Assembly: GCA_018398765.1 (NCBI GenBank)
Contig: JAHBMJ010002356.1
Location: forward strand, 38,108 to 102,107
Length of the DNA: 64,000 nt
Direction: 5' to 3'
DNA from: Chromera velia
Lineage: Eukaryota; Sar; Chromeraceae
The notes under the pieces were generated by a model. It saw only the letters and a program-made list of their open reading frames with translations, had not been told where the DNA came from and did no database searches. Shown here one piece after another: positions 3,759 through 58,500 of this stretch. Positions within the stretch are counted from its first letter, which is position 1; every line of letters begins with the position of its first letter. Position numbers and translations under genes: made by a program.

Positions 3759-6113
3759 ATGGTCAGAGCACACCTCCTTTTCGCGGCCTTGATGGGGGCC
3801 GCAATTTTGGCACCCTTGGCAGAAGCAACTCGCGACTATCTGGCAGAATGCATCGCAGAAGACGCCATCACTCCAATGAGTACCATCACTTTCGGGATCC
3901 GTGTAGCACAGGCATCTCTCTTTGTTCTGGTCGGTTTGTTCTACTGGACCCGATTCCCTGACCCGCACGTCAAGGACGAACGCCTTGCAGTATTCTCTCT
4001 TTGTACCAGCATCAACGGATACATCATGCTGTTCTCTGGGTGCCACAACTTGATCATGCTCTCCGACGCGGACGACGTCATCTTTGAGGACTGCACGCGC
4101 AACGATGTTGGAAGGTCAGTTAAAGTGCATGCATGGTCACCCGTACGGTGACGAGGGGTGAGAGGAAATCATCTGTGTCGTGCGTTCCTTGTTCGATTTT
4201 CTTGTTTGATGTTTTGTTTTACACATCCGACCAAAAGAACGTATGTGAGAGGGTGGAGACAGGTGGAGACGCAGAAGGCAAGTACTTCTGTATATATTTG
4301 TGAAGGTAAGTCATTTTCAAGCATGGTGGAGAATGGAAGGTCAACAAGCGGCCCCGTGGCCCAGCAGACTGTCAAAAAGAGACCTAAGAGGGAGAATGGA
4401 ACAGTCCCACAACTCTCTTCGATTTGGTGCCGTCTCCCTGAAATCAGGGTGCACTTACTCTCTGAATGCCCGTATTGGACTGCCTGCCTGCCTGCTGCCC
4501 TGAATTTGTTTCTGCAGGTTTGTGCAGTTTGTGATTACGTGTCCGCTTCTCACGTGGCAGGTTTCGATGCTGGCACGCAGCAAGATGCAAAGGTCAGTGT
4601 TGCTATTTATTTGTACATGGGAAATACGGTGGGCTTGACGAGGTTCGGGTGCATTCCAATTGCCTTTTTTCCCGTTGCTTTGGCTTCTAATTACTTCAAA
4701 TTGTATTTCTATTATACCAATAGATCAGGCTGCAAAGAGAAAGCCAAATTGTTTTCCATCTGCGTGCAGACAAGTTGAGCTTGTGCTGTGCACATTCCTC
4801 ATGCTCGTTTTGGGCTGCTGGACGAACGCCATTCCGGAGTTCAACTATCGCATGATGGCCTTCAGCCTGGGGGCTTTGTTCTTCGTTCTGCTGGTGATCA
4901 ACCTGGACTGGGCAGTCAGGGAAACCTCCGACTTTAAGGAATCACTCCTCAAAGGTGGGCATGCTTGAGCATCCCCAGTTGGTTCATTGGTTGGTTGGTT
5001 GGTCATCTAAGCATCTGTTTCAATAGCGCATGAAGAGAACCGGAGGGCCAACTGACTGCAGAGCTGACTAGCGGGCTTCTTGCTGTTTCGTTTCTGCGCT
5101 TACATCTCAAACTTACTGAGCCAAACTAGCCTTTTGACGCAGCCTCATGAACAGATGTCTCTGTTTGTCACGCGACCTTGCGCAGACCTGCAGTGTCTTT
5201 CCATGACGCAAACAAATAAATGTCTTGCTCACTCGTGCCCAATGAAGCTGATTCACTGTTTTTCTTTCTCTCTTCGCTCCGCAGGGAGATCCCACATGCG
5301 GTACATTTGTGTGTGTGTGGTCCTGACCTGGATCACCTTCCCGATCGCATGGATCATCGGGCCTGCTGGCCTTGCGGTCATTCCTGGCCAGGCCGAGAAG
5401 ATCACCCTCGCTGCCATGGATCTGGTCTCCAAACTGACATTCTCAGGGTGAGTTGATTTGACAAGTGGTTGGCAGATCTGCTGAGCGGGCATCAACGGAA
5501 GAAAGACTGAAGTTGGCTTCCGGTCTGCAACAGAGAAAGCGAGAAACGAGAAGCCATCGACGGAGCTCTCGAAGATCATGCATGCATTCAAGTCTCTTTT
5601 CCTGCAAATGCTCACTTCTTCATCTGCACTCGAGCTTCGTCCTTAAATTCGGCAGCATACCTCTCTGTCCGGTTGTCTTTCCTCCCTTTTTTGTCGCTTG
5701 TCTCGGGTCCACAGAGTACAAGGACGGAAGATGTCTTCAGAAAGTGTACACAGAAAAAGTATTCCTTTGCACTGACTGACAGCAAGAGCTCCCTTCCCCC
5801 CCTTTGATGCCCTCCATGCAGGTACGTCTACTATGTCCGCAACAAGTGGACGAACACTCTGAAGGAAGAGACGGCAATGAAGGCAGAGGCCGAGGCAGCG
5901 GGACTGGATCCGCCTCCTCTGACGACCGCCAAGAGCCCAGTGACAGGTCTGGACCGCCGAACGCTGAAGCACCAGGATGCAGAAGCAGAGAAGAGCAAAC
6001 GACTTCTGCTCGTCTTGACCAACAAGAAATCAGAGCCCGCAGTTGAGCAGACAGGAGAGAAAGAGGCAGAGAAAGAGGCAGCAAAAGAGGCAGGGGAGGT
6101 AATGGACGGATGA
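3759..6113 (+). CDS. Type-1 (microbial) rhodopsin, channelrhodopsin-like helix C, Gln at the Schiff-base counter-ion position
   Basis: Five exons join in phase: 3759-4114, 4518-4592, 4770-4954, 5285-5447 and 5822-6113 (356 aa). The N-terminus is a hydrophobic signal-like segment, followed by seven-helix character. Helix C spans the first junction and reads R-F-V-Q-F-V-I-T-C-P-L-L-T-W-Q (about 119-133). Arg82 of bacteriorhodopsin is kept, Asp85 is replaced by Gln, Thr89 is kept, and Asp96 is replaced by Gln. Helix F has W-I-T-F-P-I-A-W (Trp182, Phe for Tyr185, Pro186, Trp189). Helix G has MDLVSK, giving the Asp212 and retinal-Lys216 equivalents (about D251 and K255). Without the two carboxylates a proton pump is unlikely. 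TCP is the helix-C motif of channelrhodopsins, so a light-gated channel or a sensor is more plausible. A charged Ala/Glu/Lys-rich tail of about 95 residues follows helix G. Confidence 0.9.
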
Positions 6114-20789: not shown

Positions 20790-23700
20790 GGTAGAAGGAA
20801 ACTCACAATAAAAATGGTAAATGTGGGGGGGCTGGGGTTATGCATACAGAGTAAAGCTCTCGAGCGGCGGCTGGCCGCTTGCCAGACAGACATTGTGGTG
20901 TTGACTAAAACGAAGTGCCCCTCCATGCCCGTAAGAACATCTACTCACACGGGCATAATTTCGATCACTTTGAGTGGTTGAGGGCATCATTCAAGTGAAA
21001 CTAGGCTTTCTACTTCATGTGTGTGGACATTTATATATGAAAATGTGTGGAAATATTGAACCTAACATTTTTCTTAAAATACCAACTTGATTATCTCAGT
21101 ATATGCATATCTTTCATAACTGGATCTATCCTATCCTGGGTTAAGTATTATTCCTACGCCGTGTGTTAAGCTTTAATTCAGTTAGTCATGATAGAGAGAG
21201 CGCTAAGAAACGCGGTGACGAGAGAGCAACGGAAGGCAGAAAAGAGAAAGGTGGAGAACATAAGAGCCAAAATAAATGAAGGAGGCTGCTGGAAGGTGAC
21301 ACACTGTGGAGGAGACTCGGTGAGGAAGACAGGAGGGCAGCACCAAGAAAAACAAAAAACAGCATGATGACCCAGCAGGTAACAGAAGGTTTCAAACAAA
21401 TGTATGAGCTGCCAAAGGAAGAGAAAGAAGAGAGAAAGAGGGAACGAGAAGGAAAAACGACAGTGGGTAGAGCGATTAAGGAGAAACGATGGCATATAGC
21501 AGAGGAGAAGGAGGTAAAGAAGGCAATGAAAAGAGCAGGCAACCCTAGAAAGGCCGCTGGGAAGGACGAAATACCCCCAGGAATGCTGAGAACGATGGAA
21601 AAATCGACTGAGCTGGTATCTTTATATGTTTTGTTAATTAATGTTGCATATCGTTTCGGCTGGTGGCCAAAAGGGTGGAACGACTTGCCGGTGATGGCTC
21701 TTCTAAAACCGGGTAAGTCACTTGCACTGCTTGGAGGATGGAGGGGAGTGCACCTGGTGGTAGCAGATGTGAAATGGGGGGACATGATCATGAGAATGAA
21801 GGTGGAGAAGGAAGCCAGACAGACGCCATGGCACTTCGCATACAAGAAAAAGGCAGGCACATACGATGCAATTTTTCTTTTGCTGTTCGTTATTACTCGA
21901 ATGGAAGTGCTCAGTGTTGCTTTTGTTGACTTCACACGGGCTTTCGACGAAGTGAGGCTGGAAAAGTTGAAAGAGAAATTGAGAAAGGCAGGGGTGGAGG
22001 AAGGTCTGATCAGATGGGTTGAGGCCTCTTTAGAAAAAGTGAGGGCACGGGTGAAGGGGACGAGCATATGGTACCCGGAAGATAAAGGACTCAAGCAAGG
22101 AGGCCCGAGCGGCCCTTCCCTTTACTCTGTGTACATACATGACTTGCCAGAGGAAGTAGGAAAGAGAAGAGGACAGAGACGACAGACCGACAGACAGAAG
22201 CCAAAGGTGCCGGCAGGAGAAAACGGGAGGTAGGTCGATTTCCTTGCCCCTCTGTTTACAGATGACACAACACTCCTCGAATCCTTAGATAGACAGTTGA
22301 ACCTTCTTCTTTTGAACCTTGTAATCTTTGTAAAACCTCTCCGTCTTCTATTTTCTGACAAGTCGAGATTGGTCCGGTTTGGCCGCATCGTATCAAGAGA
22401 GAAAGAAGAAGTTATAGACTGGGAGAGATAGTGATAAAAAAAGTAAGAGAGCAACCCTACCTGGGACTAGTCCTATCCGCCGACTGCAACCTAGAGACTA
22501 TGATAGAGGCGCGGCCAATCAAAGCAAAGAGATGCATGTAGGGACTGATGGGGAAGATAGGAAGGGAGGAAGGGATTCCACCCGCTGATTGCTTCAATAT
22601 ATTTAAACAGACAGTGCGCGCTGTATGGTTGTATGGATGCGAAATCCATGCATACCCAGATAGCGCGTATACAGAATTCGATGAGAAGCAAAGGAGATTT
22701 ATCAGGTTTGTTTTGTATTTGAGAAAGAAAGAAAATTGTGATACGCTGATGATGGAAGGAGGTTTCATTCTGATCGATCTCGAAGTGGTTTCCAGAACAA
22801 TCCGGTGGGCAGGGAAGGCTTTAAAAGAGAAAAGAAATGAAGCGGTAGGGCAGACAATCCTCACATACCTGAGAGAGGGGGTAGAAAACAAAATGGGGGG
22901 AGGGAGAGGAATGCATCCTTTTTATCTTTTTTCTCATCTAAAGCAATGTGCACAGGCACTCTACACAGACAGAGGAATGCACCCTTTTGCAAAAGAAAAA
23001 CCTCAATCATTCATTTTGTAAAAGAAAGACTAAAAGGAAGCATAGGGCAGAGAGGAACACAGGTAGTTAACGAAAGAGTGGACGGGATAGAGAGATGGCT
23101 GCTGAAAAGAATAAAAAATGAGCTAGATAAAAAAAAGAGAAAGGCGTTTGCACATAGAATAAAAAGAAACATAAGAGAGAAGAGCAGTCAGGAGAAGGCA
23201 GAACTGACAGGAGTCATGATGGCTGACGTGCACAGAAAGGTCTCAAACAGAAACCGTCTCCACCTTTCTTTGTTTGAAGACAGAGCAGGTAGCAAGGTTG
23301 GCTTGACAATGAAAATAGACAGAGAGAGAATAGAGAGAGCCCCTTTTTGCTATACGAGAGTGGCGCCACGATCGGAACACAGGAGGAGAGCAGCATGCAG
23401 AGTGGGAGACAGGGTTGTGGCTGCGACTCAGGGAAAAATTCCGGTAAGGGGGGGAGAGAAGGTGCCGTTACAGAAAAGGACGTGCCAGTTCTGTCGAGGG
23501 TGGTTGGGAATCGAGGTGGTAGAATATGAAATCCATCTGGTGACAGAATGTCCTGTTTTTGACAGAGAGAGAGCAGAGATGTTCAGGAAGATAGAAGAGA
23601 AATAGGATAGTAAGATGGAAGAAAGAGCCAGAAAGGCAGCCACAGAAAGAGAAGGGCTCAACAGAGAAGAGGGAAAAAGAAACAACTCGACGCTTTTCTG

Positions 23701-27983: not shown

Positions 27984-30019
27984 GTGTGTATGTGTGTGCG
28001 TGCGTGGAAGGACGGTGCTTGACCCTTTTCTTTCCGTCCCTTTGTCCACCCCCACACCGCCCTCTCCCTTTTATCTCTCTTTCGTTCTGGTTCTCCCCTC
28101 GGCATCGGGACTCCCTTTCTTCTCCCAGAATCTCTTCTGCTACCACTCCTGCGTGCAGCCGGGGAGAAAGTCCATGTGGAGGTCACGCGCGTTCACAAGA
28201 ACTTCTCCGAGGCCCGAGTTCTTAAAGTTCTCCGACCCTCACCCCACAGACGCTCTCCTTTGTGCAAACACTTTATGCAATGTGAAGGCTGCCAGTACCA
28301 GCACATGACGTATGAGGATCAGAAGAAGACCAAGGAGCAGCACATACGGGACCTGTTGCAGTATTTCCTGAAGATTCCTCAGGAGGAGGCCGCTGCCCTG
28401 GTGCCCCCTCTGATCACTGCCGCGGAACCCCACGAGTTTGGTTACCGGTCGAAGTTGACCCCTCACTGGGACAGACCCAGAAAGGGAAATGTGACAGCCA
28501 TTGGGTTCCACCGTGTCGTCTCTGCATCTGCTTCTGCACATCGCCCACCTTCTCTTTTGTCGGGTTCTTTGACAGAAGAAGAAGAAGAAGCCCAAGGGAC
28601 AGAAGGGACGGGGAGGGGGGTTTTTCAGGGGAAAGAGGCAGAAAAGGAAAAGGGGGAGGCGAATAACAGCGCTGGAAATTTAGAAGGGGGACAACAAAGA
28701 CGGGAATTTGACGTTACTGGCCGAGTACGATTGGAGCGTTTTGATCTTGAGGAGTGTCCCATCGCGCTTCCGAGTATACAAGAATCACTGAAACCGGAAA
28801 AGGAGAAGGTGCGGGACATGATAAAAGAAGCTTTCAGAAGTCAAGAAGAGATTCTGGAAATCGAATCAAAAGGCTTCTCTTCTTCTTCAGAGGAATCGGG
28901 GGGTGAAGCAGACTCTGGGGGTACGGAAGAAAGGGAGAGGTTGAAGCGGAAGAACAAAAAGCTGTTGAAGAATGGGGGGACGTTGCTGTTGAGAGCAAGT
29001 GAGGAGGGGGTGATCACTGATTGTCGTGCTGAAGGGGCCGAAACCGTTTTGGGTCGGAAGTTTTTCTTCAAAGCCGGCGAGTTCTTTCAGAACAATCCCT
29101 TTGCACTCCCAAAGATGATTGAATTTGTTGTAGAGAGAGCAAGTAGGCCGTTGAAAGCCCCCCTAATCACAACAACCTCTAGTGCGGCTGAGGAAGATGA
29201 GTCTCAAGTCACAAAAGAAGGTCTCCCGCCGAGTCTGTTGCTTGACTGCTACTGTGGTGTAGGCCTCTTTGCAGTCTGTGCTGCTGACCGCTTTTCCCGG
29301 GTGGTCGGTGTGGAGGTTCAGAAATCGGCTGTCGAGCTGGCCAAGCGTAACCGTGATGCGGCAGGTTTGAAAAATTGTGAATTTCTCTGCGCGTCTGCGG
29401 AGGACATCTTTGGCTTTGCTCGAAGAGAGAAGGGACACGAAGACGAGGGAGATCAGGAGGAGTCTGCCGACCTAGAAGTGGAGGGAGAAAAGCAGAAAGA
29501 TGTGCAAAAAGAAAGACAGGGGGGTGTGGCGGAAAACGAGGGGGGGGAAGAAGATTCAGAAGTCTTCTCAGACAAACAGGAGACGTTGGAGGTCGATCCC
29601 AAGAGTTGTGTGGTCATTCTAGATCCTCCAAGAAAAGGGTGTGACCGCCTTTTCCTCAAACAGCTTTTCGCCTTTAGTCCTGCACGAGTCGTGTATGTCT
29701 CCTGTAACCCAGCAACGCAGGTGTGTCTGTCAGTGCATGCATCGGAGGAAGGGAATGAAGCAATGACGGAACGAAGGAAGGAAGGAAGGACGGGAGAAGG
29801 AAAGAGCGGAGAAAGAAAATTTGCAGATGGGTGGGGATTCACGCATGAGAGAGAACGACTGGCAGTAGAAAGAAGGTTCTTTCTGTACTCCCTGTGCCCT
29901 CCTTCGTTCTTTTCACGCGTACTCTTTTGCCTGCAAATATCTGCCTGACTGTCGATCTTTGCCCCTGTTCCCCATCGCACCCCGTTCTTTTTCGCCGTGT
30001 GTGGCAGTGTGTGTCGCTG

Positions 30020-32144: not shown

Positions 32145-34194
32145 TCACTTGAAGAAATCGTTGATCGACTCAACAAAATATTCGGGCTTCAGACTGCCGT
32201 TAGACCCCTGCATGGTGTTGCGCAACCTTTCCGGAGAGGTGACCCCCGAGAGAGTCAGTACTGTGCGCAGACCGTTGTTGCGTCCAAAGGCAATGTCGGT
32301 GTCCAGCCTGTCTCCCACCATGAGAATGCGGTTCTTCTGGACTTTGTACTTGTCAACGATGTAGTCAATCATCAGAGGGGCGGGCTTCCCGACCACCGTG
32401 GGCTCCTTGCCAGTGCACCCCTTGATTGCCCCCACCATCGACCCGTTCCCTGCCCACTCCTGCAAGCAAGGAGCCCAAAAAGAAAAGAAAAAAAAAAACG
32501 AGAGACGAGAGGCAGATCAGAAACAAAGAACGAAAAGGGACGGAATGCAGTGGGGAAGGGGGTGTAAGGAATGAAGGGTAACTTCTCAACTTGCTGGACT
32601 ACTAAGCAGGCATATGAAGAGCTGACAGAAGGGATGAAGGGAGAACCCAGGCTGCCCGAAGCACAGGTCAAAAGGCACACAAAGAGACACACACACAGGA
32701 AGAGAAACAGAAACAAACACTGAGACGGGGACAGACACGACGAAAAAGAAAAAAGGAGACAAAACACTACCCGACAAGAAACCCCGCCAACGTGCATGAC
32801 CAACAGAGGACTACATGCAAAGAACAAGACAAGGATAAATGAGAAGGACAGAAGGACTTATTTGGACCTCTCACTCACCTGTGCATCTGTCAGGTGAGTG
32901 ACTGCGTCCAGGTTGGTGGCGATGAACTGCGCCTTGTTCTCGTTGATTGCCAGCTGCGCGTACTGGAGCTTGTAATAGTTGATATTCCGGTCAAACCCCA
33001 CGCACACAGCCCCCACCTGAGGGTCAATCTCCAGCTTGGCCCCGGGTTTCAACTCGATCTTCTTGTCTTTGTCTGCAGTCACTCAACAGACAGACAGGTC
33101 AAACAGAGAAGGCGAACGTGAGATGCTCAGGTACCTTTGAAGTTCGGTGTTTTCTGTCACTTCCTAAGTAGGTGAGTTCCGTTTGGAACTGCCTTTCACC
33201 AGTCGTCTCGCCGTCGTTCAATCTTCCTCAAACAGACACCTGCAAAACCTGCCTCGTGTTTCAGTCACTCATACATTCATTAGTCCGTCAACCCGTTTCT
33301 GCGATCAAGCGTCCACTCAGCGAAAGCCCTTCTCTCTCAGAGCCTCAAGAAGAAGAACGTGCCCCCCAACCATCCCTCTACCGAGAGAACGTTGTCAGGC
33401 TCACCAGGTCTTTCCGATCAACCATATGCGTGACATTTGGAAAAACACGACAGCATGAACGTCGTCACCGCATTCCCTCCCAATGTCACTCTGTCTGTTC
33501 CAGAGGGTGAATGAGAGCAATCCCTCAATAAAGAGAGCCCTAACTTCCTCATGTTTGAGAAAAATACAATGAACAGGTGACTAAATTTGAGAAAAAAGGA
33601 GAGCCAACCTCCAACCGACCGACCTTTGGTTGCACCGATCCATGGCACCCCCACGAGATCTAACTCCTCCTCGATTCCCGTCTCTCCCACCACGTAGACT
33701 TTCTTTCCCGTCTCCTTGAATTTCGTCTGTTCAAAATAAGCAGCAGCGGCAAAACTGGAGGAGAAGATTTCCTCATCCTGAACATCTAGACCCAAATCTG
33801 TGAACTTCTTCTTGTACCCCTTTCGTGACTTCGTGGAGTTATTCGTCACAAAGAACAGACGCTTTCCGAGTGCACGCAACTTGTCAAGAACATCAGGAAT
33901 TCCAGGAATCACAGAGTCACCCCTCCAGATCACGCCATCACAATCAAAAACAATCACATCAATGCCCTTCAGAAACTCATCAGCTCCTGCCAAATAGGCG
34001 CACTCCGTCTCTGCCTCGAGGGTAGGCACTGCCTTCAAAACTGCAAAGGGGGTGGCACGAGAAGACAGAGGGGAGAAGTCACGGCGTACAGTTCCTGTGG
34101 GCAACCGAGATCCACGAAGGAAAGCAGAGCAGTGAGGGGCCTGAAGGAGACAGGCAAAAGCAGACACTAATGCACTGAGCTTTGGCGCCCTCAT
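32145..34194 (-). CDS. HAD-superfamily phosphatase, phosphoglycolate / 4-nitrophenylphosphatase type, plastid-type leader
   Basis: Three exons join in phase: 34194-33624, 33072-32879 and 32459-32145 (359 aa). All HAD motifs are present: VFDCDGVIW with nucleophile Asp84 and Asp86, FVTNNSTKS (motif II), GKPAP with the motif III Lys, and MVGDRLDTDIAFG (motif IV). The long cap between motifs II and III is that of HAD subclass IIA, as in eukaryotic phosphoglycolate phosphatase and 4-nitrophenylphosphatase. The N-terminus (MRAPKLSALVSAFACLLQAP then HCSAF-LRGSR) is a signal peptide with a cleavage site before Phe, followed by a Ser/Arg stretch. This is the pattern used in algae with complex red plastids. 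With that leader, removal of 2-phosphoglycolate made by Rubisco oxygenation is the natural role, but substrate is inferred. The gene is divergent from glucose-6-phosphate isomerase. Confidence 0.92.
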
Positions 34195-34721
34195 TTTCGT
34201 TGCGTCTCCCTGTGAAACCGTTACGACTCAGGACCTTCTCGCACGACCAGATACAGCAACCCTTCCACAAATCTTTGTCTGGGAATGCCGGTGCTTTCCG
34301 CTGGGGTCACAGAAGGCAGAGAAGAAAGAGTCATTGCATGCCAATTTAAGGAGACGGCTGCAAGTAGACGGTGCTGTGGGCACGTCGATTCGTCACGCAC
34401 GCGCGATCGTAGTGGGTGAGTGCCTTGAATTGGATCTTTCGTTCTATAGGCACGCGGAGACGGCATGCTTTGTCTCGACTTGAGCCGCCAGGATGCCGCC
34501 AGGATCAGTGCCACTCAAACGATCAGTTCTGCAGTTCTATGGCACCACTGAAATTTCGCAGTGCCTACACCATAAGGGTTTTCATGGTCACGAGTTTTTC
34601 CTCTGGCAAGTTGTTCAGTCGGTTGCAATTTACTTCCTCTCTCTCACTTTTGCTGTCTCGACGCAGTGCGTCCCTCTACCCCACTCCCCGGAAGTTCGAA
34701 AACAAGAAATTGACACGCACG
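34195..34721. promoter_or_regulatory. Divergent intergenic region between the HAD phosphatase and glucose-6-phosphate isomerase
   Basis: The two start codons diverge across 527 bp (345 bp if the isomerase starts at the upstream Met 34539). No core promoter motif can be named. The isomerase frame stays open upstream of 34722 and gives an Arg/Ser-rich leader-like sequence, so part of this region may be coding. Confidence 0.4.
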
Positions 34722-46148: not shown

Positions 46149-46771
46149 ATGTCGAAGCGTCGCTCGGGTCCGCCATGCTCCAGGCAAGCGTTACAACAGC
46201 GTCTCCTTCGATCCTGTCCAATGCCCTCCTCTTGCTGCTCCCTTCATTCTCGATCGTCTCCGCTCTCCTTCCTCGGTGATTGCATCGCCTCACTCGTTAG
46301 GCTCCGAGCTCCATTCGTCCATCCATCCGTCAGGCCGTTCTTCTCGATCCATCTCCATGTGCAACTCGAAGGGCCTCCCTCGCATGATGCAGCAATTTGA
46401 ACGCGAAGGAACCAAAGGAGGGAGGATTCAGAACGGAGGGCAGGGAGGGAGGCAGGCGGCCACGGAGGCAGATACATCCATACAAACAGACACGCAGGCA
46501 GACTCTATGTCATTCTCTTTTCTCGTTGACACACAAAGCATTTGTTCTTCCTTTTTCTTCTCCTCTCTTTCACAGACAGACCAACCGACCGACAGACAAA
46601 CCGACGGAGGAGGCAGACAGCAGAAAGGCACCGGCAGCCTAAAAGACAGGGAACAGGGCGTCTGGGCTCGTGTGAGCAAAAAGATCAGTAGTGTGACCAC
46701 TCATAAGGACCAAACGGGCCACGCACGAAACTTCTTTTTGAATACTTGAGCGAACACACGCACACACACAG

Positions 46772-46802
<31 letters not shown>

Positions 46803-46812
46803 AACGTACACG

Positions 46813-46844
<32 letters not shown>

Positions 46845-46845
46845 T

Positions 46846-46880
<35 letters not shown>

Positions 46881-46941
46881 CACACATACACGCACACACA
46901 CACGCGCACACACAGACACACGCAGACACACGCACACACAC

Positions 46942-46988
<47 letters not shown>

Positions 46989-47008
46989 TACACACACACA
47001 CACACAAA

Positions 47009-47047
<39 letters not shown>

Positions 47048-52500: not shown

Positions 52501-55500
52501 CGCACTGAAGGGTATGGGATGAACCAGAATTCCTTCGAATCGCGGAGTGGAGCGGGGGGGTCCCTGCAGCCTGAACCGGGGGGCGAACGGGGAGCAGAAG
52601 CTGCTGGGAGGTCAGTGAAGACACACACGTCGGATGGATGCGTTGGGAGACGCGGAAGGAAGTCTTCTTTCTTTCTTTCTTTCTTTCTTTCTTTTCTTTC
52701 TTTTCTTTCTTTTCTTTCTTTCTTTCTTTCTTTTCTTTCTTTTCTTTCTTTTCTTTCTTTTCTTTCTTTCTTTCTTTCCTTCCTTCCTTCCTTCCTTCCT
52801 TCCCTTCCTTCCTTCCTTCCTTCCTTCCTTCCTTTCTTTCTTTCTTTCTTCCTTCCTTCCTTCCTTCCTTCCCTCCTTCCCTCCCTCCCTCCCTCCCTTC
52901 CGTCCGTCCGTCCGTTCTTTCTTTTCTTTCTTTCTTTCTTTCTTTCCTTCCTTCCTTCCTTCCTTCCTTCCTTCCTTCCCTTCCTTCCTTCCTTCCTTCC
53001 TTTCTTTCTTTCTTTCTTTCTTTCTTCCTTCCTTCCTTCCTTCCTTCCCTCCTTCCTTCCCTCCCTCCCTCCCTTCCGTCCGTCCGTCCGTCCGTTCTTT
53101 CTTTTCTTTCTTTCTTTCTTTCTTTCTTTCTTTCCTTCTTTCTTTCTTTCTTTCTTTCTTTCTTTCCTTCCTTCCTTCCTTCCTTTCCTCCCTCCCTCCC
53201 TTCCTTCCGTTCTTTCTTTCTTTCTTTCTTTCTGGCTTTGGTCTTCTGTGCAGGGGGGGGGGGGGCTCTTGGGCCCTCAGCACATGAAGGAACGTTCTTT
53301 TTTTTCGCTCTGTCTGTTTTCTTCGGAAAGGAAAACTCGAGGGAGAATTGCATTTTTTCCAGAACTTCAGCAGACGGACGCCGTTGTTCTGTTCATTCCC
53401 GTTGAGCCTACAGCTTCTTTTCTTCTCTTTTCAGAGCTACGAAGAAAATCGACAGGGCGTGCGTGAACATGGACCGCCAAGAGCTCGGCTCCTCCGGCGT
53501 AGTCATTCATTCTTTCATTCGTTCGTTCATTCATTCATTCATTCGTTCGTTCATTAATTCATTCATTCATTCTTTCATTCATTCGTTCGTTCGTCCATTC
53601 ATTCATTCGTTCATTCATTTATTCATTCATTCTTTCATTCTTTCATTCATTCATTCATTCATTCATTCTCTCCTGTCCCTTTGCTTGTCCATCTCTCTCT
53701 CTCTCTCCCCCCCCCCCCCCCCCNNNNNNNNNNNNNNNNNNNNNNNNNNNNNNNNNNNNNNNNNNNNNNNNNNNNNNCCCCTCTCTCTGTGTGTGTGTGT
53801 GTGTGTTTGTCTGTTGCTTTGTTTGTGGTCTCACATTGCAGTGGTCCTGTGGGATTTGCCGGAGGGGACAGTGAGGCGGCGGTTTCGTTCATGATGCCCC
53901 GCTCTGTGGGTGCACTGGAGGCGGGAGGGTCGAGGTCCCCCCCTGTTCCGGGGGTTCCCTTTCCTTCCTCTTCTCTGTCAGAGGCTGCGGGAGAGGCTGG
54001 GGGAGAGAGAGAGAGAAGAGGGCACACGGAGGAGTCCTCCTTTTCCCCTTCATTCAAAGACAGACTCAGACAAAGGTGGATGCAATTGAACCCATTCGGT
54101 CCCTCCACAGGAGCGGGAGGGGTAGGGGGTCCCCCGCCTTCACTGGGAAGACAGGGGGGTGCACATACACACACAGCGTCGTCTCATCTGAGGTTCATGA
54201 GAGTGACGGCAGCTGGGCAGACTCAAAACAACAGCCCCCCCCCTGTGGGAGTGCCTGCAGGTCTCTATGGAGGTTCGTTGGCATGGCATGTGTCCCCTCC
54301 CTCTGATTTATGCTCGTGGTTCCATTATATTGCCCTTCAGTTGGTCTATTTAGCTGACTCGCTGTTTTCCTTTTTGTTTTTGTCTTTCTCCTCAGAAAGT
54401 TACGCTGCCGCCATTCATTTGTTCTTTTGTATACGCCCGCCTTCTTCAATCTTCGTGTGTGGCTGNGGGGTGTGAATACCTCCATCCTCCTGCTTCTGCC
54501 CAAACGGCCGCGCTCTGCACTATCATCAGGGTCCCGTTTCATTCTTTTCTTTTGCTTGCAGGGCTACCCGCTTGGAAGGTTTCAGGCTCATCTGCTCTGT
54601 CGAGATCCAGGGGCAGAGGGCGGGGGGTACCCGCGTACGCACATGCAATGGCGCGCCCTCTCGCGTCCACAGGAGAAAATGGGGGTTTTCTGGGAGGAGG
54701 ACTCAACGCGTCGGTGCCTGCCTCCCTCTCCCCCACACCCATGCAGTCGGTGGCCCAATTTCTGGGAGGACCCGAGGGAGGCGGAAGGAGAGGTTCCAAC
54801 AGCAGAGTAGAAGGGGGGGCTTTAAATCAGAGACAGAGCCGTGGGGGGGGGGAGATGGGAGAGAGTCGGCGCAGTCTCGGAGGGTCGGGTTTTGGTTCGG
54901 TTCGGGTGAAGAAGGTGGTGTGTGGGTTTGACCATACTCTCATTTTGTTGAGTGACGGCGACCTGTGGGCGTGTGGATCTGATCACCTGGGGCAGTTGGG
55001 TAGTGGGTCCGGTGGGTTTGTGCGGAGTCCGGTTCCTCGTCGGGTTCAAATAGAGAGGTGTGAAGGGGAAGGAGAAGGAGGGGGGAAGGGGAGTAGAGGT
55101 GATGTGGTAGACGCAACTGCGGGGCCTTTTCATTCGTTGGCTTTGTGTTCTGATGGGAGCGTGTTTGTGTTTGGGTTGAACGTGATGGCACGGGAAAGCG
55201 GAGACTTCAATAGAAGCAGCAGTGCGGAGCGTCTGTTGGAAGAAAGGCGGCGAAGAGAAAGGAAGAGCAGCCAGGCCCCCTCGGCCTGTGCTGCTGCGTC
55301 TGCGGAGAATTGCGTCAGTCAGCCTTTCCACTACAAGTCGACAGATGAGATGGAAGGAAGGCAACTTGTAATGAAGCAGGACGAATGGAATGGACCAGAG
55401 TCAAGAAACACAAGGAGGATCTTTCTGTTGTTTGACCCTTCATTCCTCAATGGAAGGGGAGGCCAAGATTGGTCTCTGTGTGTGTGTGTGTGTGTGTATG

Positions 55501-58500
55501 TATGTGTGCATGCCGAACGAACTCTTTGACTCCCCGTTTCCTCCTAGAGAATCCGGACAGGTTTCTCGTTTGTCTCGAGTGTGAACCAAAAGATCTTTGG
55601 CTCTGAGAAGCGAAGAAAGTCTGTGTAGTTCCCTTTCCTTTCGGAAAGAAAAAGGAACAAAATGAAAAACCAAAAAGGCGAAGGACCCACATGATAGGAA
55701 AAGAAGAAAGTCAAGTTCAGAGGAAAATGGGCCGTGCTCAAGAGGATCGTCTGACGGTCATCAATTGCCTTTCTCATCAAGCATTTTTTTTTGTCTTCGC
55801 TGCTTTGCTTTCAGCAGGTTGTAGGCGAGATTCAAGACAATGCGTGTGAGCGGACAGAAACAACGAAAGACAAAGAGGGACTTCCTATGGAGGGATCAAG
55901 TGGTGGTCAACATCAACATCAACAACAAGCAGGAGGGGTCTCGTCCGATTTGTCTCCAGAACCTGGAAGAGAAAATTCGTGCTCTCCTCCCAAGACTGCA
56001 TGGGAGAGGAAGGATATCCTTGAGGATAACAAAATCAATAGACGCCCCCTTGTTTTGCAAAGTCCAAAATTGCTTTGTCGATTTGATTTGGGAAGGGTGT
56101 CTGACGTTTCTTTGGGGCAGGGGGATGTGAATGGAAGAGGAAGAGGGCGATCAAGGGGTTCGAGAAATAATTCAAATGCAAGCTCGGTGAATCAAGAAGA
56201 GAAGGGACAGACGACAAAGAGGACAAACATGGTGCAAATGGAATGCGGACCGCATTTTATTCTCCTCACTTGCCGGTGAGTGTGCGGAAAGAAAGACAGA
56301 GCTCTCTCTCTCTCTCTGTGTGTGTTCATTCTTCTTTCTTTCTCGGTCTGTTTTGCATTGCCTTGCCTTGCCCTGCCAGTGTTTCTGTCTCCTTCCATCC
56401 GGTGCGTTGACGGGTCCGCTCTTCCATGACGGAGATTCTCCTTGCCATTTGTCTTTCTGCTCGCTTTTTGGGTCATTGCATTCTTTCTTTCTTTCTTTTC
56501 TTTCTTTCTTTCTTTCTTTCTTTCTTTATTCGGTCGGTCGGTAGGTCAGTCAGTCTGTCTGTCTGCCTTCCACTGAGACAGCGCGCCAAAAGAAGAAATA
56601 AAAACAGAGAAGACAATGACGAAAGAGAAAAAGAAAAAGACAATGCCATATAGTCTATCTGCCTGTTTGACTCTAAGTTTAAAAAACGACGCAAAAATGG
56701 AACCATGGTCGCTTTTAATGTCCCCCTTCACTTTTTCTTTTCTCTTTGCAGGGCGACGCTGCTCCCAGAATTGCTGTCGGAGTCTGCCCCTGCGCACCTG
56801 TCTGCTGGGATTCCCGGAGAGGAGAGAGGAGAGGGAACGTATGACGACTCACTTTCCGGTTGTGCGGTAGAAAAAGAAAGTGTGCGTAGGGATGTACAGC
56901 TCAACAGTGCTACAAATGGGGCGAATGGAGAGCTTGGTGCGCAAGAAAGAAAGGGAGGGGAAGCCGTAAGTCTGAGTCCAGAAAAAGGGGAAACCATCGA
57001 ACGAACAGGCACAGGGGGGCAAGAAGAGACAGGAACCCCCCCCAGGATGCCCAGAGATTCAAAGAAACCCACGAAGGTATCCCCTTCACGAGAGAAAGCA
57101 GACTCGTCGCGTCGTTCGCTCAAGTCTCAGCCTTCTTCCCTCCTCCAACTCCAGCCGGCCTCCCTACCCCCATCTAGAAGAGCATGGGCGCATCAAATGA
57201 AAGAAAAAGAGAAGCGGGGGGCGACCGTATCCCCTTCAGGCAAACGTGCCCCCTCCGTCGAAGTTTCTCAGAAACCTCCTGCAGCACGATTAGAGCCTCC
57301 TTCACGTTCACCTGTCTTGGAGGAGAACAAGGGGGAGGACAGGGTGGACAAAAAGGGTGCGAATGCTCATCGTGATGGAGTTCCGGTGTCTCCATCAAGT
57401 GACGGTTTTCCCTTCCTTTCTGCTTCGTCTCCTGCTGTGTCTGTTTCCGTTTCGGAGAGAGTGGCCGGTCTCGGGGCCTCTCCATCTCCCCCGATAAGTC
57501 ATAACTCACCCCCTGTGGCTACCCTCCAGCAGCAGCAGCAGCTGCAGACTGCCTCTCCTTCCCCGAGCTCCTTTCTTCGTGAGCCTGAAGGAGACGGGAA
57601 ATTGAGTGAGGGGGGGGACAGGACGCCATTCCTGTCTGCAACGGGGGGAGCTTCCTCTCATGTTGGCGACGGAATAGAAGAAGGAGGGGGAGAATGCGAG
57701 GGAGAGGTGCCTCAGCAAACACTTCGCGCTGACGACGCACGGATGCCTCATCCCTCCACACCACAACCAGCTTTCAATTCACCAGAGTCACCCAATACAA
57801 ATGCAAGACCAGGTTCTGGGCAAGGAACAGGACCGCAGGGAGATGACGCACGCCTATCTCCTTCTCCCGCTGTCGCCAGGCAGTCGCTGTCGAGGACTCC
57901 TCCCTGGCCATCAGAAGCTGTGGGACCGGACCCCGGTGCATTCCTAGCCGGGGGCAGTGGCATGCCGGGGCCTTCCAGATCGGTGCCCCCGCCTGCAGGG
58001 CCACAAGGGTCGAGGGGTCCGGCCTTCCTCTCTTCTCAAAGGAGGGTCAGCCTTGCCTCCTCCAGCAAGCTGCCTGTTGGGCCCTCGTGCTACTTCGATC
58101 GAGAGCGAGTGCGGCAGTGGGCGTTCTGGGAGACACAGGTGATCCCGGAGTGGCTTGGGAGGCACCCGGGTACGGGGGGGGAGATTGGGCCTGGAGAGAC
58201 GCACAGAGGGTCGACGATCGAGAAGGCTTGGAGACAGGGAGGGGTGCCTGCAGAGAGCAGAGACGTTGTGTGGCCCCTCGCAATTGGTCGGTCAGTCGGT
58301 CGCTGTGTTAGTGGGGGGGGGTCTTTCTCTCTTTCTTGCACCCTTTCGTTCAAGAGACCTTCCCTCCCTGCTGTGTTTGCGTTGTCATCCAGGCGGGGAG
58401 TCTGAGGTCGACAGAGAGGTTCGGAAAGAGAGGCGAACGAGTGTTGTGCTTGTGTGGCCTGAATGCTCTAGTGATTCTTTGATGATGAATCGGGTGGACG

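Follow-up and report, generated by a model that had tools for sequence, protein, structure and literature searches.

The window analysed here, a 64-kb stretch of Chromera velia DNA (64 000 nucleotides in full), contains a five-exon gene at positions 3759–6113 of the forward (+) strand, which encodes a type-1 rhodopsin of 356 amino acids. The five exons, joined through introns with GT and AG ends, give an open frame of 357 codons including the stop codon. Exon 1 (3759–4114) encodes a hydrophobic N-terminal stretch that is likely to be a signal peptide, followed by Cys31, helices A and B and Cys112. Intron 1 (4115–4517; GT..AG, phase 2) falls at residue 119 and leads to exon 2 (4518–4592), which encodes helix C with Gln122, Thr126-Cys127-Pro128 and Gln133. 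Intron 2 (4593–4769; phase 2) lies at residue 144 and is found in the window gene only. Exon 3 (4770–4954) encodes helices D and E and is separated by intron 3 (4955–5284; residue 206, phase 1) from exon 4 (5285–5447), which contains helix F (W221..F224-P225), a GPAG loop and most of helix G, including Asp251 and the retinal lysine Lys255. Intron 4 (5448–5821; residue 260, phase 2) precedes exon 5 (5822–6113), in which helix G ends and is followed by a charged C-terminal tail of ∼90 amino acids; this tail has no Pfam domain and carries a short S-P-V-T-G motif with counterparts in paralogs. All features of the gene are on the + strand. The introns at residues 119, 206 and 260 are common to the window gene and the paralogs L029–L033 described below, and those at 119 and 206 are also present in L034 (six, six and five of the 11 paralog models, respectively).

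Helix C reads R119-F-V-Q122-F-V-I-T126-C127-P128-L-L-T-W-Q133, with Gln122 at the position of Asp85 and Gln133 at that of Asp96 (bacteriorhodopsin numbering); Cys127 and Pro128 correspond to Thr90 and Pro91, and Asp251 and Lys255 to Asp212 and Lys216. Intron 1 splits the codon of Arg119 only, and because residues Phe120 to Gln133 lie in a single open frame inside exon 2 the identity of Gln122 is independent of the splice model. An alternative exon 2 with a carboxylate was considered and is ruled out by this same frame and by a paralog (L035) in which a single long exon encodes the entire motif. The original prediction, which had proposed the five-exon model and pointed to Gln122, TCP, Gln133, Asp251, Lys255 and the NGYI of helix B, is borne out in the joined exons for each of these features, as is its view that Gln at both positions speaks against proton pumping of the Asp85/Asp96 type.

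The window protein is a type-1 microbial rhodopsin, with a match to PF01036 (Bac_rhodopsin; 68.4 bits, cut-off 24.6), seven helices and Lys255 in helix G. At E values of up to 1 Pfam gave nothing beyond PF01036 for this protein, and hence no PF18761, and an NCBIfam scan matched no family. Simple hydropathy finds the N-terminal stretch and helices A–F; helix G is under the threshold and was placed by alignment. With helix ends set by hand, 11 Lys/Arg residues are located in loops A–B, C–D and E–F and three in the N-terminus and loops B–C, D–E and F–G. Heliorhodopsins have an inverted membrane orientation. The hydrophobic leader and the loop charges of the window protein fit the usual type-1 orientation and not the inverted one. 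Helix B (residues 77–101), which includes the stretch N86-G-Y-I, contains no Asp or Glu, and the loop between helices B and C is acidic. By the helix ends as drawn, helices A, B, C and G of the window copy contain a single acidic residue, Asp251. Gly178 occupies the Ser141 position and, by offset, Gly159 the Gly122 position.

Other features of the window include a frame with a reverse transcriptase domain at 21280–22233 (+) (PF00078, 42.7 bits), which is probably a non-LTR element, a tRNA uracil-5-methyltransferase-like frame at 28023–29948 (+) (PF05958), a HAD-like hydrolase at 33418–34227 (−) (PF13344) and RCC1 repeats at 54354–55529 (+) (PF13540). Long TTCT, AC and GT arrays are present at 52665–53233, 46754–47042 and 1475–1603, respectively.

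When the window protein was searched against the C. velia genome assembly (177.8 Mb in 4040 contigs), 52 exon-level matches were obtained at E values of up to 1. Paralog models were built with a purpose-written spliced aligner; 11 of these cover the seven-helix core (L029–L037, L039 and L040), and L048 is a partial model that runs from helix A to about helix E. L038 is a further, pseudogene-like copy with in-frame stops. The window gene and these 12 further genes (one as a partial model) thus make up a family of 13. Aligner scores were 454–1117 for the three of the 11 paralogs that were rescored, 261 for L038 and 82–139 for L041, L044, L046 and L047; 20 random 6-kb stretches from the rest of the window, aligned on one strand as a control, scored 71–120.

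The pattern Gln-x3-[TS]-C-P-x4-Gln is kept in all 13 models that include helix C (12 with the full core and the partial L048; L038 is not counted). Across the 12 aligned proteins Gln122, Cys127, Pro128, Gln133, Asp251, Ser254, Lys255, Cys31 and Cys112 are invariant, the two cysteines subject to the less certain N-termini of the L036, L039 and L040 models. Residue 126 is Thr in ten members and Ser in two (TCP in 10/12 and SCP in 2/12), and residue 119 is Arg in eight and Lys in four. Helix B is free of Asp and Glu in all 12 members of the alignment. The residue at the Ser141 position varies (Gly in four, Thr in three, Ala in two and Ser in three). Gln stands at the Asp85 column in 12/12 family rows versus 0/40 rows of other rhodopsins, which is beyond chance. 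Paralog dN/dS ratios are low (0.055–0.23) in eight of nine pairs, with an infinite dS in the ninth; these ratios are rough because dS is greater than 1 or infinite in seven of the nine pairs. In the tails, a motif [FP]VTG or I[IV]TG is present in the window protein and eight of the 11 paralogs (the tail of L039 was cut off after ten residues in this comparison), and a cytoplasmic stretch resembling IVIxNxFDxxxL is present in four of 11 (L030, L031, L034 and L035), whereas L029 and the window protein lack it. No tail domain exceeded the Pfam cut-off in the window protein or in the three of 11 paralogs that were scanned with their tails; one weak NnrS match in the scanned paralogs was far below the cut-off and lay over the helices.

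The C. velia genome also encodes rhodopsins of other types. Six (L045, L047 and L049–L052) have Gly at both the Asp85 and the Thr89 column, followed by C-P, and are ChvCCR1-like; three (L041–L043) are of the pump type and have Asp at both the Asp85 and the Asp96 column (DTD). L044 and L046 match PF01036 and have an odd helix C in their rough models (VVVNP in L044 and no proline at that place in L046). A heliorhodopsin is located at G000:C1077:8627-10035 (PF18761, E = 6.7e-60).

The relationship of the family to other rhodopsins was analysed in a tree of 52 rows, comprising 12 family members and 40 other rhodopsins, which included 18 of the 118 prokaryotic loci with a match and five of the 12 heliorhodopsin loci. 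L038, whose frame contains stops, L048, whose model lacks helix G, and L044 and L046, which gave no reliable model, were dropped beforehand; GtACR1, ChR2 and a few others formed long branches. The C. velia family is one clade in this tree (100/99). A branch with support of 90/84 sets the family together with the channelrhodopsins against pumps and heliorhodopsins, and another (86/73) sets the channelrhodopsins apart from all others. KR2 and L149 are on a branch of their own (100/99). The ChvCCR-type genes, which in 6/6 models have Gly at both the Asp85 and the Thr89 column, form a separate clade (100/100) next to HcKCR1 (94/69), a neighbourhood that is weakly supported (45/8) in a reduced tree. 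In AU tests on the 52-row tree, neither a grouping of the family with heliorhodopsins (p-AU 0.293) nor one with pumps (p-AU 0.283) was rejected. Two reduced trees of 44 and 49 rows were built from helices C–G without the motif columns and without L145, L146 and C1C2. In these, the channelrhodopsin side has a support of 64/78, and the branch around the channelrhodopsins is supported at 49/58 when heliorhodopsins are left out. In the reduced tree with heliorhodopsins the p-AU values are 0.497 for channelrhodopsins, 0.535 for heliorhodopsins and 0.421 for pumps, and on the reduced set the tree constrained to join the family to heliorhodopsins outscored the unconstrained tree by 0.56 log units. 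None of the three trees gives the family a firm deep placement. A rhodopsin tree of the sort envisaged in the original prediction thus puts the family on the channelrhodopsin side in one case and gives it no firm place inside the pumps, but kinship with either pumps or heliorhodopsins is not rejected by the AU tests.

A single-sequence search of the PDB with the window protein returned sensory rhodopsin II first (E = 7.5e-11) and then pumps, with no channelrhodopsin in the best 60 of 137 matches. In a profile search the best chain was a bacterial-type rhodopsin (1.1e-18) and the best of channelrhodopsin type were iC++ (3.7e-13) and C1C2 (3.9e-13); profile–profile E values were about equal for pumps (5.9e-19) and channelrhodopsins (3.5e-18). 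Since the searches and trees leave the kinship open, descent from channelrhodopsins is not shown by TCP alone, and the earlier reading of this motif as a sign of channelrhodopsin membership is not supported. Cys is found at the Thr90 column in 12/12 family and 13/13 channelrhodopsin rows; none of the pump or heliorhodopsin rows has it. The residue before the helix F proline is Phe in the window protein, in 11 of 13 channelrhodopsins and in 5/5 heliorhodopsins, and Tyr in all 21 pump rows that are not gapped at this column. Outside the family, two of 40 rows have Gln at the Asp96 column, the NTQ-type L149 and the NDQ-type pump KR2. Derivation of the family from viruses or bacteria was also considered and is not favoured by searches of limited reach: the family patterns occurred in 58 stretches of viral contigs and 114 stretches of prokaryotic genome contigs, with none confirmed as a relative in either set, tblastn of the window core against phages gave no match and neither did KR2 and channelrhodopsin queries of viral contigs.

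We conclude that the product of the gene at 3759–6113 is probably a light-gated anion (chloride) channel similar in kind to VbACR2 of Vitrella brassicaformis, and that the gene is one of a 13-gene family in C. velia. This reading is preferred because the Gln/Asp site is like that of VbACR2, TCP is present, helix B is without acids in 12/12 members and Asp251 is the only acid in helices A, B, C and G of the window protein. A noncarboxylate at Asp85, TCP and a helix B lacking Asp and Glu are traits of anion channelrhodopsins, and together with the Gln of VbACR2 they lend substance to the original suggestion of a channel, possibly an anion-selective one; a placement of the protein within the channelrhodopsins by means of TCP is not supported. 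In the mechanism that we propose, light would isomerize the retinal bound to Lys255. As position 122 offers no proton acceptor, Asp251 (perhaps together with a bound chloride) would serve as the counterion, and the Schiff base would stay protonated during the opening of a pore that runs through helices A, B, C and G and, being devoid of acidic residues, would let Cl− pass. The outer N-terminus may be linked to the B–C loop by a disulfide between Cys31 and Cys112. The resulting shift in membrane voltage might, for example, steer the flagellate stage.

Gly178 at the Ser141 position suggests, by analogy, that the window copy is sensitive to blue light, and the colour to which each paralog is tuned may differ. 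Such spectral tuning is a fair prediction because Gly at this position is tied to a blue shift in the account of PMC10147648 and because the family varies between Gly, Thr, Ala and Ser there. Several observations count against an anion channel: the PDB and profile searches put sensory rhodopsin II, pumps or a bacterial-type rhodopsin first or end in a draw, the AU tests leave kinship with heliorhodopsins and pumps standing, and the Asn after the retinal Lys is absent. Furthermore, a noncarboxylate at Asp85 does not prove anion selectivity, as ChvCCR1 has one and passes Na+ (PMC9765531).

ChvCCR1 is at the same time an argument for a light-gated cation channel conducting Na+ or H+, and DsChR1 is reported as another exception to the rule (PMC8406140). 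We nevertheless regard a cation channel as quite unlikely, given that the ChvCCR-type genes form a clade apart (100/100) with Gly and not Gln at the Asp85 column in 6/6, and that helix B of the QTQ family contains no Asp or Glu in 12/12 members. Another reading would make the protein a light sensor without a useful ion flux, signalling via its cytoplasmic tail or via partners. The two short tail motifs kept among the paralogs (one in eight of 11 and the window protein, the other in four of 11) are in line with such a role, as are sensory rhodopsin II as best PDB match, the position of the QTQ clade near heliorhodopsins, which PMC9601134 describes as showing no transport, and the suggestion in the same source that the neighbouring dinoflagellate proteins perhaps do not serve as channels. 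A sensor is unlikely all the same: no enzyme or transducer domain was found above the Pfam cut-off in the window protein and the three of 11 paralogs scanned, neither Pfam nor the loop charge distribution makes the protein a heliorhodopsin, and its likely relative in Vitrella is a channel.

A light-driven chloride pump of the NTQ or halorhodopsin-like type has to be considered because Gln at Asp96 is shared with the NTQ- and NDQ-type rows (2/40, L149 and KR2). Here Gln122 would stand in for Asn, and Thr126 and Asp251 would hold chloride near the Schiff base; Thr or Ser at Thr89 and Asp at Asp212 are indeed kept in 12/12 members, and pump kinship was not rejected (p-AU 0.283 and 0.421). Set against this are the separate branch of KR2 and L149 (100/99), two residues that are not pump-like, namely Cys at the Thr90 column and a Phe where pumps have Tyr ahead of the helix F proline, and the lack of any prokaryotic relative found with the family patterns, and we hold a pump to be very unlikely. 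A bolder evolutionary picture is that the 13 C. velia genes represent a separate deep branch outside the classical channelrhodopsins, pumps and heliorhodopsins, in which both Gln residues became fixed and anion conduction evolved independently, followed by a colour-tuned set within one alga; this picture is tentative and, in our estimate, rather improbable.

If the preferred reading of a light-gated anion channel is right, the 13 conserved genes with a VbACR2-type site would offer a natural series for studying chloride gating with a single counterion and colour tuning by residue 178. Should these proteins be channels, the clade put near heliorhodopsins by PMC9601134 would contain ion channels. 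Blue-sensitive anion channels are useful as neural silencers.

The window gene is very likely to be a member of a C. velia clade described in PMC9601134, which has QTQ in TM3 and DxxxK in TM7 and lies near dinoflagellate rhodopsins and heliorhodopsins. The species is the same and the window protein fits the motifs exactly (Gln122, Thr126 and Gln133; D251xxxK255), although two of the 12 family members analysed here would read QSQ. The text of PMC9601134 that deals with this clade sets it near heliorhodopsins and gives it no function, and the present trees do not settle its placement; in the main texts of the open-licence literature, as far as these were covered, we found no measured photocurrent for C. 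velia QTQ proteins. With this clade, ChvCCR1 (PMC9765531) and VbACR2 (PMC10147648) already published, this lineage is better covered than the original prediction assumed. What is new here is the size and strict conservation of the C. velia family; its kin are published, and one of them has been measured.

Among these kin, ChvCCR1 is Na+-permeable with a noncarboxylate at the position of Asp85; the combination of a noncarboxylate at Asp85 with Gly for Thr89 is described in PMC9765531 for three C. velia proteins (Cvel28437, Cvel21397 and Cvel30056). ChvCCR1 and its relatives share with the window protein the species, the noncarboxylate at Asp85 and, in the six like genes, C-P in helix C; they differ in having Gly at Thr89, where the window protein has Thr126, in their separate clade and in their Na+ permeability. 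According to PMC8406140, TCP is found in most channelrhodopsins, and the anion channelrhodopsins known to that source all have a noncarboxylate at Asp85, a trait that is not proof; some dinoflagellate rhodopsins with TCP show channel activity. SmChR1 and mgdChR1 from the same source are alveolate or similar metagenomic rhodopsins with TCP, some with a light-gated current, and have Asn (or Leu) at Asp212, whereas the window protein keeps Asp212 and has Gln at Asp85. The cryptophyte anion channelrhodopsin GtACR1 likewise has TCP, a noncarboxylate at Asp85 and Asp at Asp212, but with Ser instead of Gln, a retained Glu68 and an Asp85-to-Asp212 spacing of 137 rather than 129; GtACR1 and ChR2 both have Asn after the retinal Lys, where the window protein has Leu256. 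Compared with an NTQ chloride pump, Gln replaces Asn, and the L149 and KR2 branch is located elsewhere. Heliorhodopsins are distinguished by PF18761 and SxxxK in helix G, in contrast to PF01036 only and D251xxxK255 in the window protein.

The closest counterpart that we identified is VbACR2 (CEM28120) from Vitrella brassicaformis, a sister chromerid, which was measured as a 440-nm monovalent anion channel that conducts Cl−, Br− and NO3− (PMC10147648). Its Gln128 at the Asp85 position is seemingly unique among the anion channelrhodopsins known to that source, and Asp257 is the sole carboxylate among its three counterion positions. The offsets from Gln128 of 129 (Asp257), 37 (Ala165) and 56 (Gly184) correspond to residues 251, 159 and 178 of the window protein counted from Gln122. 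The 129-residue spacing is kept in 12/12 family rows; it was considered as a mark of the VbACR2 group and is not specific, as it also occurs in two prokaryotic pump-type rows and one heliorhodopsin. Gln at Asp85 with Asp at Asp212 as the sole counterion candidate, the trait of the VbACR2 group (Colpodellida channelrhodopsins) as described, is present here. From a comparison at the published residue positions, we regard the window protein as a putative orthologue of VbACR2: both have Gln at Asp85, Asp at Asp212, a noncarboxylate at the position of GtACR1 Glu68 and Gly at the Ser141 position, and they differ at the Gly122 position, which is Ala165 in VbACR2 and, by offset, Gly159 in the window protein.
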